Position numbers and translations under genes: made by a program. A stretch of 20,307 nucleotides of DNA from a virus, in IMG/VR virus record IMGVR_UViG_3300009104_000150, positions 1 to 20,307 of that record. The stretch is one strand, 5' to 3'. Numbering within the stretch: the first letter of the stretch is position 1; every line of letters begins with the position of its first letter. The notes under the pieces were generated by a model, which saw only the letters and a list, made by a program, of their open reading frames with translations, was not told where the DNA came from and searched no databases. Of this stretch, positions 16,445 to 19,542 are shown piece after piece.

Positions 16445-17356
16445 TTACTCTTCAGCAAGTTGTTTAAAATAACTCATGTCATCTTCAGTTTCAGCTGTTG
16501 CTGCTGTTGCTACATGAGATTCAGTTACAGGTGGTTTAACTGCGGCTTGTGCAGGAGTCATTGGTTTACCACCATCAAATGGAACATCTTCATCATGTGA
16601 AAGAGTTGGTGTATCAGTTTGTTTTCCGAGTACACGATCTAACTTCTCTTTCAACTCAGCATAAGTTTTATAATTCTTGGGATCAGTAAATTCCGCCAAT
16701 GAATGTTCAGACTTCCAGATTTCTTCCATCTTAGCTTCATCTTCATTAAGAACAGAAGGATTTTCAAATTCACTCTTATCGTAATTAGAAAAACCATCCA
16801 ACTTACGAATCTTGATTTTGAAATTCGCACCTTCCCATAAATCAAATGGATTTACCGGAGTTTCATCTTCAAATTCTGGATTCATCTTATCATTGATCTT
16901 ATCCCAAATCTTTTTACCAAACTTATACAAACGAATAGTACCTTCGTTCTGAGGATTGGCAGGATCTTTAATAACGTAAACATTAGCAATGTAAGTAAGT
17001 CTACGTTTTTGTTTACGAGCAATCTCTTTGTTTGCCTCAATACCAGAATTCCAAAGTTGTGAATTATATTCACTTACTGGATCTTTCTGACCAAGAGTAG
17101 TTAAAGAGTTTTCAATATACCAACCGCCCGGTCCCTGAAATCCATGATTCCATGAACGTGACCACGGAAGGTCTTCACCATCAGGTGCTGGCAGAAAACG
17201 AACTACTGCCATACCGTTGCCTGACTTGTCCAATTCTGGACGCCAGAAACGATCATCATCACCTTGACCCTGTGCTGGAGTATTGAGTTTTGCGGTTTCT
17301 TGTAGGAGTGATTGGAGTTTTTCTCCACGTTTTTTCTTCATATCTGCAAACGACAT
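16445..17356 (-). CDS. gp32: Single-stranded DNA-binding protein gp32, cysteine-free
   Basis: A 303-residue protein (T4: 301). A basic N-terminal helix (MKKKRGEKLQSLLQE) corresponds to the cooperativity domain. The core has IARKQKRRLTYIANVYVIKD and KFGKKIWDKINDKMNP (about 112-160), close to T4 TSYWANILVVKDP and RFGKKIWDKI. The C-terminus is acidic (ETEDDMSYFKQLAEE), the part that recruits replication partners. T4 gp32 binds zinc with CPVC plus another Cys and a His; here the matching stretch is DPVSEYN (92-98) and the whole protein has no cysteine. It coats single-stranded DNA in replication and recombination. A consensus promoter and AT-rich leader precede it, with AAAGGA as ribosome binding sequence. 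Confidence 0.94.
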   Translation of the reverse strand: MSFADMKKKRGEKLQSLLQETAKLNTPAQGQGDDDRFWRPELDKSGNGMAVVRFLPAPDGEDLPWSRSWNHGFQGPGGWYIENSLTTLGQKDPVSEYNSQLWNSGIEANKEIARKQKRRLTYIANVYVIKDPANPQNEGTIRLYKFGKKIWDKINDKMNPEFEDETPVNPFDLWEGANFKIKIRKLDGFSNYDKSEFENPSVLNEDEAKMEEIWKSEHSLAEFTDPKNYKTYAELKEKLDRVLGKQTDTPTLSHDEDVPFDGGKPMTPAQAAVKPPVTESHVATAATAETEDDMSYFKQLAEE

Positions 17357-17453: not shown

Positions 17454-17678
17454 TCACAAAGGAAGTTTGGCAGAAGAAGATATTAAATGTAAATCCTCAG
17501 CTTCTTCTTGAATATTCTGTTTTAATTTTCCATTAATCATTTTACCGGCAGTTTCGGGCTCTAATTTATTTTTTTCACAATAATGTAAAACTGCATCAAT
17601 ATAAGACATATTAGTACTACGTACCAATTTTTCAATATTTTCTGAAAACAATATAGAATTGTTTAATCTTGTACTCAT
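17454..17678 (-). CDS. gp33: Late-transcription coactivator gp33-like
   Basis: A 74-residue protein with the pattern IEKLVRSTNMSYIDAVLHYC (15-34) and LEPETAGKMINGKLKQNIQE, as in the short gp33 homologues of marine T4-like phages. T4 gp33 (112 residues) binds the RNA polymerase beta flap and links the late sigma gp55 to the sliding clamp. The order gp33 then gp32 fits T4-like genomes (T4 has gp59 between them). The start has no clear ribosome binding sequence and comes 8 bp after the two-TM gene. Its stop is 10 bp before the gp32 -35 box. The call rests on motif resemblance and position. Confidence 0.75.
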   Translation of the reverse strand: MSTRLNNSILFSENIEKLVRSTNMSYIDAVLHYCEKNKLEPETAGKMINGKLKQNIQEEAEDLHLISSSAKLPL

Positions 17679-17948: not shown

Positions 17949-18239
17949 TTAATATCTCCTGTCTTCCCATTGGAAAACCCAATCATTGTTTTCATGTGTA
18001 ACTTTTACTCTGCCCATATCCATTGGTTCAGGATAAAAATAAACGTAATCTTCTCCACCTAAGTTGGTATCACGTCCTGCGTATAAGGGGTTAATAGCAT
18101 TAGGTTCACCCCTTTCAATCCCTGCTTGTCGTTCTGCTAAATCACCTTCTTTTAAATAATTTTCATATTTAGTTCGATCAAATTTAACCTGAACATATCT
18201 CGCAGGTATTGCTTTATAACCACCTCGGTATTCTGACAT
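17949..18239 (-). CDS. Hypothetical protein (96 aa)
   Basis: Family not recognised. The protein is rich in Tyr, Asp, Glu and Arg. It includes RYVQVKFDRTKYENYLKEGD early, a middle NAINPLYAGRDTNLGG and an aromatic end DYVYFYPEPMDMGR then WVFQWEDRRY. It looks small, soluble and mixed alpha/beta, with no Cys and no membrane segment. The start is supported by AAAGGA four bases upstream. It is preceded by a GC-rich hairpin and followed after 1 bp by the two-TM gene, so it belongs to the gp33-gp32 operon. No function can be offered. Confidence 0.72.
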   Translation of the reverse strand: MSEYRGGYKAIPARYVQVKFDRTKYENYLKEGDLAERQAGIERGEPNAINPLYAGRDTNLGGEDYVYFYPEPMDMGRVKVTHENNDWVFQWEDRRY

Positions 18240-18249
18240 ATTTCCTTTT

Positions 18250-18271
18250 AGGGGGAGCTATTAACTCCCCT
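18250..18271 (-). other. GC-rich intercistronic hairpin
   Basis: GGGGAG (18252-18257) and CTCCCC (18265-18270) form a 6-bp stem with a 7-nt loop, extendable by a wobble or bulged pair at the base. On the minus strand it sits between two small genes and is followed by TAAAAGGA, which is the ribosome binding sequence of the next gene rather than a T-tract. It could stabilise or attenuate the transcript. It is a poor terminator on either strand. Confidence 0.45.
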
Positions 18272-18280
18272 ATTTTATTG

Positions 18281-18508
18281 TTACTGTTTCTCTACAAATT
18301 CGTAAAGTTCAGCTGCCTTCTTCTTAATATCCTCAATGGTATAAGATTCTGGCTGAAGTTCTTTAAACAACTCCATAGTTGCAACTCCATTTTCCTTTGC
18401 AAGATCCCATGCATTGTAAATAAAGTCTTGTTCGCGTTGTTCTTGTTCTTGGAGATAACTTTGTGCCATCTCTAAAAGTCTAAATCTTAATTCATATGGA
18501 TTAGACAT
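18281..18508 (-). CDS. Conserved small phage protein (75 aa), function unknown
   Basis: Start taken at ATG 18508-18506, which has AAAGGA six bases upstream; a longer frame from 18580 would run back through the tmRNA and is rejected. The product is an acidic, helical protein: MSNPYELRFRLLEMAQSYLQ, then a Gln/Glu-rich stretch and a C-terminal YTIEDIKKKAAELYEFV. I recall similar N-terminal NPYE-(L/I)-R proteins among marine T4-like phages, without a known role. Two helices joined by a loop look likely. It is the first protein gene after the tmRNA in the leftward operon that ends with gp33 and gp32. Confidence 0.75.
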   Translation of the reverse strand: MSNPYELRFRLLEMAQSYLQEQEQREQDFIYNAWDLAKENGVATMELFKELQPESYTIEDIKKKAAELYEFVEKQ

Positions 18509-18534
18509 ATTGTTCCTTTCATTTATGTGTGTGT

Positions 18535-18706
18535 GTTGTGTGTAGCTGACCGTGCTTCTGTTCCCAAGTGACGGCCACAACTCGGCTATATCTTACGCAG
18601 CAATAGCGTATGCATATGCAGGTTCATAATCGGAATTATTTGCGATTATATTTAAACGAAACCTCTTTTTCTGACATTACAACCAATCGAATTCTATTAC
18701 AGCCCC
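18535..18706 (-). ncRNA. tmRNA coding piece (5' half, tag frame, pseudoknot)
   Basis: Begins GGGGCTG at 18706, followed by a D-region AGAATTCGATTGG like the conserved tmRNA GGxTTCGAC stretch, then TCAGAAA (18674-18668) for the P2 helix. Only 24 nt separate P2 from the resume codon, with no room for a normal PK1. After the tag stop, TAGC (18588-18585) pairs with GCTA (18546-18543) and GGCCGT (18576-18571) with ACGGTC (18553-18548). GTTGT (18581-18577) can pair with ACAAC (18539-18535) as a pseudoknot. A CA-rich run ends the piece. The 3' boundary is estimated. Confidence 0.85.
18593..18643 (-). other. tmRNA tag reading frame (ANNSDYEPAYAYAIAA, stop)
   Basis: The frame starts at resume codon GCA (18643-18641), preceded by TC as in many tmRNAs, and ends with TAA (18595-18593). 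It encodes 16 residues, ANNSDYEPAYAYAIAA. The AN start and AIAA end match the general pattern of tmRNA degradation tags (E. coli ANDENYALAA), where the terminal hydrophobic residue and AA are read by ClpXP. The acidic DYE stretch and the repeated AYAY are unlike the tags I remember from bacteria. Confidence 0.88.
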
Positions 18707-18715
18707 AGCAATGAA

Positions 18716-18802
18716 TCACATAAAACCAAAATACACGACTGCGTATATGATTACACACCAAACCAATAAAGATAGTAAAGTCCATTTTACCCAATGTTCC
18801 AT
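18716..18802 (-). CDS. Possible 28-aa single-span membrane peptide within the tmRNA intervening segment
   Basis: ATG at 18802-18800 follows AAGGA with a 5-nt gap, and TGA lies at 18718-18716, ten bases before the coding piece begins. The product starts MEHWVKWTLL and continues as a hydrophobic run to YFGFM, which predicts one transmembrane helix of about 20 residues with the charges at the N-terminus. The first A of the ribosome binding sequence is also the terminal A of the tmRNA CCA. The frame fills 87 of the 105 intervening nucleotides. Translation is unproven; codon choice and the strong start site are in its favour, its shortness against it. Confidence 0.5.
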   Translation of the reverse strand: MEHWVKWTLLSLLVWCVIIYAVVYFGFM

Positions 18803-18811
18803 ATGATTCCT

Positions 18812-18860
18812 TGGTGGAGCTGACCGGAATCGCACCGGTGTCTTAACTGCTATTCAGAAA
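18812..18860 (-). ncRNA. tmRNA acceptor piece (T arm, acceptor strand, CCA)
   Basis: Minus strand, 5' to 3': a P2 strand TTTCTGA (18860-18854), a linker, T stem ACCGG (18839-18835), a 7-nt loop TGCGATT, T stem CCGGT (18827-18823), acceptor CAGCTCC (18822-18816), discriminator A and encoded CCA ending at 18812. The five T-stem pairs are perfect. The loop has G where nearly all tRNAs have U55. The 5' end is not defined and at least 11 nt overlap the last codons and stop of the exonuclease gene, so this gene and the RNA share sequence. Confidence 0.87.
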
Positions 18861-19542
18861 CATCAACAGTTTCATTATTATTTAGTTCATATAAATTTTT
18901 AGCTTTCCATATTGTATCAATCCAATTATTACGGTGTTCAACAAATAATTGTGGAACCTCTTCATCAACAGCAATAATAATTACTATTTGAGAAACGGGA
19001 ATATTTGTCAACTCTTCGTATGCTACCGCATAAAAGGATCCTTGTGCAAAATAATTTTCACACCATGCTTTTCTTTTTAATTTATTACTTGTCTTATAAT
19101 CTATTACAGATAATGTACCATCAAATTCAGCAATTAGATCAGTTCTTCCTGCTAAACCAAAATGATCAGAATATAATGCTAATTCTACTCCATGTATATT
19201 ATCTATTCTTTCAAGGTATGGTTCAATACTCTTGAATAATTCGACAATATTAGGTGTTTGTCCGTCAAGATATCCTTCTTCATTTTTGATATAGGACTCA
19301 CAGACAGAATGTACGCTTGTTCCTCTACGGGAAGCCTTTGTCGATATTTTGTTCGCTTCGGTTTCTCCAACACGCTTTCGCCACTCAAGTATTGAAGTTT
19401 TGTTGAGCTCACCGAGGACAGTTGTGATTGATGGATATGATTCACCTTCAGGTGTAACATAGTGTCTCTTCCCATTGTGATATTCAGTTCTCATACCAAA
19501 CGACAACTCTGGTCGATTGGCAAGATGTACAAAATTTTTCAT
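18850..19542 (-). CDS. PD-(D/E)XK exonuclease (RecB/MGME1-like)
   Basis: A 230-residue protein with the ordered motifs of the PDDEXK exonuclease group: YPSITTVLG (36-44), RGTSVHSVCE with H78 and E82, GRTDLIAEF with D135, VIDYKTS with D148 and K150, and QGSFYAVAYEE (Q167, Y171). These match single-strand exonucleases of the RecB-nuclease/MGME1 type that are widespread in marine T4-like phages. Likely roles are DNA end processing in replication or recombination, or host DNA breakdown. The start overlaps the FmdB-type gene stop as ATGA. The 3' end shares sequence with the tmRNA acceptor piece. Confidence 0.85.
   Translation of the reverse strand: MKNFVHLANRPELSFGMRTEYHNGKRHYVTPEGESYPSITTVLGELNKTSILEWRKRVGETEANKISTKASRRGTSVHSVCESYIKNEEGYLDGQTPNIVELFKSIEPYLERIDNIHGVELALYSDHFGLAGRTDLIAEFDGTLSVIDYKTSNKLKRKAWCENYFAQGSFYAVAYEELTNIPVSQIVIIIAVDEEVPQLFVEHRNNWIDTIWKAKNLYELNNNETVDVSE

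Follow-up and report, generated by a model that had tools for sequence, protein, structure and literature searches.

Two-piece tmRNAs of T4-like marine phages were described in 2022, in a set of 53 two-piece phage tmRNAs of which 50 were marine or aquatic (PMC9004378). SsrA is also annotated in the phages Melnitz and Mosig, near gp33, in the same gene slot as the tmRNA gene considered here; along with the published set, these annotations make permuted tmRNAs of T4-like marine phages an already known arrangement. The initial annotation of the present locus had thought such a gene unusual and perhaps undescribed, an opinion that the 2022 publication and the same neighbourhood in the two annotated phages overturn. 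In the permuted tmRNA genes of alphaproteobacteria and SAR11, 75–125 bp lie between the two sections of the gene (PMC2704228). We analyzed a 20-kb virus fragment (IMG/VR record IMGVR_UViG_3300009104_000150, positions 1–20,307; the whole of it is called the window below), in which the sequence between the two sections is likely to hold a protein gene of its own.

The window contains a complete, circularly permuted (two-piece) tmRNA gene on the minus strand, from 18873 to ∼18545. The Rfam model RF04321 (tmRNA_permuted) matched positions 18873–18593 over the full model with 83.1 bits, the gathering score being 47 (E 6.5e-15); the identity of the locus as a permuted tmRNA is near certain. ARAGORN, run on the window, missed the permuted tmRNA. 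The beta_tmRNA model gave a weak match to it that reached 18541 with 37.3 bits, below the cut-off of 84; for alpha_tmRNA (RF01849, cut-off 50 bits) the window tmRNA had no listed match, and this cut-off was passed in nine close relatives only.

As read from the sequence, the tRNA-like 3′ part with its CCA lies upstream of the 5′ part with the tag frame (all features are on the minus strand). The acceptor piece, placed at 18812..18873 by RF04321 and the sequence and given a presumed mature 5′ end, carries an encoded CCA (18814–18812; 18815–18812 together with the discriminator). Its acceptor stem of 7 bp, with G3-U70, is formed by GGGGCTG (18706–18700) and CAGCTCC (18822–18816); the T arm, ACCGG-TGCGATT-CCGGT (18823..18839), has a perfect stem of 5 bp. 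Another helix of 7 bp, partly included in the Rfam alignment, connects the two pieces by pairing TTTCTGA (18854..18860) with TCAGAAA (18674–18668). From the CCA to the 5′ half runs an intervening spacer of 105 nt (18707..18811). The coding piece (18545..18706) consists of the 5′ half and the tag; its 3′ end is approximate, with a terminal hairpin around CTTGGGAACAGAAG, the RF04321 match extending to 18593 and the weak beta_tmRNA match to 18541. The tag reading frame (18593..18643) has 16 codons, ANNSDYEPAYAYAIAA, followed by a stop codon. Thus, the gene order on the minus strand, the acceptor and T stems, the helix between the pieces and the 16-codon tag ending in AIAA plus stop were all correctly recognized in the initial annotation. 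The span proposed there, 18535–18860, was about right; its beginning, however, fell within the acceptor piece, in its 5′ part, and the reading frame in the spacer went unmentioned.

Relatives of the locus were collected by way of the neighbouring exonuclease, a bait that does not itself select for the tmRNA. A permuted tmRNA was present in 67 of the 80 records found in this way (all of the 20 nearest loci, 41 of the following 50 records and six of the last 10), many of the records being short contigs that possibly end before the tmRNA. All five base pairs of the T stem were paired in every aligned gene, with three of the five changed on both sides. The search pattern fixed most of the acceptor letters, which leaves the T stem and one free acceptor pair as independent support; this free pair occurs in relatives as G-C, C-G and A-U, and it is always paired. 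All 44 complete tags in the clade, read from the resume codon to the stop codon without requiring a final A, ended in AIAA or ALAA; there were 11 different strings, including one truncated at a contig end. The initial annotation had named two findings that would speak against a tmRNA, absence of a significant covariance-model match and loss of acceptor pairing and tag frame in related phages. Both came out in its favor: the RF04321 match is significant, and relatives keep the tRNA-like pairing with covariation as well as a tag frame ending in AIAA or ALAA.

The upstream neighbour of the tmRNA is a PD-(D/E)XK exonuclease gene (18850..19542, minus strand; phrog_298, 4.5e-71; PF12705), the 3′ end of which overlaps the acceptor piece by 24 nt (18850–18873), with its stop codon at 18852–18850. 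The sequence just 5′ of this overlap varies between relatives. Downstream of the tmRNA follow a 75-aa ORF (18281..18508, minus strand), two small ORFs, a gene for a gp33-type late-transcription coactivator (17454..17678, minus strand; phrog_254, 6e-19; PF16805, 7.8e-20) and a gene for a gp32-type ssDNA-binding protein (16445..17356, minus strand; phrog_224; PF08804). The 75-aa ORF, which lies directly next to the tmRNA, had no match in PHROG or Pfam; by eye, ORFs resembling it (M.PYE/FEIRLELLKMA...) follow the tmRNA in two more distant phage contigs, L087 and L184. No T4 late promoter (TATAAATA) was found near the tmRNA, and its window-wide count was not above chance; neither was the count of sigma-70-like sites. 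In a search for the host, the tag pattern hit eight Chloroflexota contigs among genome contigs, and these were taken as chance matches within protein-coding sequence. In L184, genes for a ClpS protease adaptor (PF02617, 6.8e-26) and an HSP20 chaperone (571–873 and 64–567) lie just upstream of the permuted tmRNA, whose spacer is at ∼1163–1267; this grouping suggests a phage cluster for protein quality control.

The spacer of the window tmRNA contains a nested ORF of 28 aa, MEHWVKWTLLSLLVWCVIIYAVVYFGFM, with a single predicted membrane span (18716..18802, minus strand). A Shine-Dalgarno-like AAGGAA (18807..18812) touches the CCA and stands 4 nt 5′ of the ATG; motifs of AAGGA/AGGA type are found in relatives. 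At the same spacer site, some relatives have homologous ORFs (MEKLAIWTMISLLICCGIIYAVVYFGLI and MEKKLMWLAIMILLGLCLTYATLYIGYDFR, among others), and in further relatives the site is taken by ORFs that are apparently unrelated (MDKVLTWFFTLTILGMGIAWFYLNYNM, MSNNKMFVLAMLVLGIIVAAAYIIVIFYL, MGILDKLFIAFLIGAGLSYLIYLIMM, MDVKEVTIAIIIFIITLVLIWSLDFVLI and MSSADMAILVVLIVIGIIMTGTYFYFGG). Spacer ORFs are present in more distant phage types too: MKTPDIIVVILLLIFVCVHIFF in L087, whose tag is ANDEKFALAA and whose contig carries the exonuclease, gp33 and gp32, and MDEEMIYQLVCGILIVVSLVSFACYLIFF in the L155/L184 type. One locus, L039, is alone among the relatives in having a charged, non-hydrophobic ORF, of 53 aa in a spacer of 183 nt. 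The spacer ORF of L114 is not hydrophobic and was treated as a chance occurrence. The spacer microproteins matched no Pfam family, and their matches to PHROG were weak only (best 0.027). In named phages, blastn did not find the window tmRNA, and tblastn with two peptides, both from the main families, gave no match. Among the other permuted tmRNAs of viral contigs, the majority lack a comparable spacer ORF, which means that the ORF is not a general need of such genes.

A qualifying ORF (ATG start within 18 nt of the CCA, at least 20 aa, end inside the spacer) was present in 51 of 83 distinct spacers of at least 50 nt, where dinucleotide shuffles predict 1.2; this count is descriptive, as the spacers are not mutually independent and the sample was partly drawn by spacer length. 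The substitution test is independent of the count. For it we took the loop interior, away from the helix, and simulated neutral evolution on the trees of the sequences. For 32 sequences of the MEK type the interior pN/pS was 0.54, with a neutral mean of 1.10, and this value was reached in none of 300 simulations; for the window type, which offers only three distinct sequences besides that of the window, the four sequences gave 0.40, with a neutral mean of 1.09, a value reached in one of 1000 simulations. The other frames of both interiors had pN/pS of 0.79–2.0. Over the ORF of the MDKV type, pN/pS was 0.25 in the reading frame, against 1.8 and 2.8 in the two others; the sequences of this set are too similar to one another for a decisive simulation test of their own, the observed value being reached in 47 of 1000 neutral simulations. 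Judged by these substitution patterns, the spacer ORF is under purifying selection only in its own frame. We also saw that T is the commonest nucleotide at codon position 2 in the families of hydrophobic spacer ORFs, as expected for selected membrane spans and not for mere U-richness. The spacer ORF is likely to be a nested protein gene, with a single-span membrane protein as its predicted product.

Comparison of close relatives indicated that the spacer changes on its own. The flanks of the window tmRNA spacer are 93% and 94% identical to those of L007, whose spacer has 25 nt and no ORF, versus 105 nt with the ORF in the window. Outside the spacer, L033 and L004 are 98% and 94% identical, and L193 and L176 are 97% and 94% identical; the ORFs differ within each pair. 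Nearly identical flanks around different spacers show that gain, loss or exchange affects the spacer content without involving the tmRNA halves. Judged by these alignments, the spacer behaves as an exchangeable cassette, with unrelated ORFs or none in near-identical tmRNA genes.

The ends of the spacer pair with each other, over 10 bp in the register common to the relatives and over 14 bp in the window. Covariation of homologous columns and folding place the 5′ strand of this closing helix, with the ribosome-binding site and the AUG, at 18800..18809, and its 3′ strand, with the stop codon of the ORF, at 18713..18722 (both minus strand). When acceptor stem, T stem and spacer helix were taken jointly in 28 distinct sequences, 98.1% of the cells were paired and 66 were changed on both sides; in slid controls, with partners shifted by one to three columns, 37–46% were paired and zero to six cells were changed on both sides. 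The spacer helix alone had 95.7% of its cells paired, with five pairs changed on both sides. Such a spacer-closing helix is general in permuted tmRNAs, whether an ORF is present or absent; in the ORF-bearing phages, its 5′ strand includes the Shine-Dalgarno sequence and usually the AUG too. In folding calculations, the mean unpaired probability of the ribosome-binding site and AUG was 0.16 in the full spacer of the window and 0.45 when the last 20 nt were left out. Translation from the full spacer, where these elements are largely paired, may be low, and the folding suggests that the microprotein is translated from nascent RNA.

We consider it quite probable that a marine T4-like phage here carries a functional-looking permuted tmRNA gene, and that the spacer of this gene houses a second one. 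The computation shows the identity and conservation of the tmRNA, the helix, selection on the ORF as coding sequence and exchange of the cassette; what follows on processing and charging of the tmRNA, on translation of the peptide, its place in the membrane and its possible function, and on coupling to tmRNA maturation is inferred. The precursor transcript would run from acceptor piece through spacer to coding piece; host RNase P would cut at 18706 and 3′-end nucleases would act at the CCA, freeing two pieces that could pair again through the acceptor and P2 stems. With its G3-U70 pair the tmRNA would accept alanine and, together with SmpB of the host, would add ANNSDYEPAYAYAIAA to nascent chains that have stalled, marking them for proteolysis in the course of infection. 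Two roles would fall to the spacer (18811–18707): the helix formed by its ends extends the acceptor stem and probably offers the precursor to the processing enzymes, and the body of the spacer would encode the 28-aa membrane microprotein, with the ribosome-binding site touching the CCA. Since the helix contains both the ribosome-binding site and the AUG, most of the microprotein probably comes from transcripts still being made, at a time when the 3′ strand of the helix has not yet been transcribed. One could extend this proposal to several lineages of marine T4-like phages, in which the tmRNA spacer would be a cassette site for translated, exchangeable microproteins, mostly single membrane spans, and the ribosome-binding site in the half-joining helix would physically link peptide production with tmRNA maturation; to this extension we give about an even chance.

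Three other explanations were weighed against the nested gene. In other permuted tmRNAs the spacer is a plain loop closed by a helix, hydrophobic residues tend to come from U-rich sequence, and the near relatives L007 and L012 have no ORF; one could therefore take the locus as an ordinary phage permuted tmRNA only, its spacer being structural filler and the open frame a by-product of U-richness and helix constraints. We find this quite unlikely, as purifying selection acts in one frame only, and does so in the loop interior outside the helix; moreover, shuffles of the same composition do not produce such ORFs in anything like the observed number (1.2 versus 51), and the enrichment of T at codon position 2 extends across unrelated families. 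It is very unlikely that the gene is a decayed or decoy tmRNA, competing with the host tmRNA without tagging, even though a precedent exists in the CDS-less tmRNA of phage DS6A, which in E. coli inhibits the cell's own tmRNA (PMC11915505). Across relatives, which differ from one another here, the tag frame has stayed intact with its AIAA or ALAA end, and on this ground we set the decoy aside; the G3-U70 pair for alanine identity is kept as well, and so is the T arm.

Likewise quite unlikely is that the spacer ORF is regulatory: translating ribosomes would keep the helix open and delay processing, and the tmRNA would mature when initiation falls. The peptide itself would hardly matter, and this would account for the interchangeability of unrelated ORFs. 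Location of the ribosome-binding site and AUG in one strand of the helix, with the stop codon often in or near the other, agrees with such a mechanism, as does occupation of the same slot by different ORFs. A leader indifferent to sequence, however, needs neither purifying selection on the amino acid sequence nor membrane spans in nearly all families, and both were observed; in addition, some relatives lack the ORF altogether. If the nested gene is real, a structural RNA would be shown to hold a conserved protein gene in the spacer that it discards, and permutation spacers would thereby prove usable for coding. Gene callers miss membrane peptides that lie under an RNA gene, and the finding would add a family of such unannotated peptides in phages. 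One could then test whether ribosome rescue in phages is coupled to a membrane effector, or whether translation is used to time the maturation of tmRNA.

Among described systems, Melnitz (Methylophilales phage, MZ577097; PMC9004378) resembles the window in being a T4-like marine phage with a permuted tmRNA, situated between a PD-(D/E)XK nuclease gene and genes for a gp33-type coactivator and a gp32-type protein. It differs in its tag, read by eye as ANDNYVPVDYALAA, and in its spacer frame, which is a different one and soluble-looking. This unannotated frame, with a Shine-Dalgarno sequence and ATG, has 54 codons and extends into the tmRNA's 5′ half (L267:10985-11437); four isolates that are nearly identical share it unchanged. 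Melnitz is reported to have a glutamine riboswitch (PMC9004378), whereas the window yielded no glutamine (glnA-type) riboswitch at gathering score, and none at E ≤ 5 in 18000–19100. Mosig (Pelagibacter phage, MT647606) likewise has a two-piece tmRNA, with a nuclease and a late-promoter accessory protein as neighbours; its spacer, however, is short, ∼45 nt, without a comparable ORF. With the permuted tmRNAs of alphaproteobacteria and SAR11 (RF01849, RF04321) the window gene shares gene order, the presumed processing scheme and a helix-closed spacer, but it does not reach the RF01849 cut-off. A full-text literature search, with most subscription journals outside its reach, gave no description of a protein gene in a tmRNA spacer; as far as could be searched, a conserved, exchangeable membrane-microprotein gene in this position is new. 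The nearest parallel to a protein gene in a removed part of tmRNA is found in tmRNA genes with a group I intron, some of which carry ORFs for homing endonucleases (PMC11915505); there the host element is a self-splicing intron in the T-loop region, whereas in the window there is no intron, and it is the permutation spacer that would encode a protein, a tiny one predicted to reside in the membrane.
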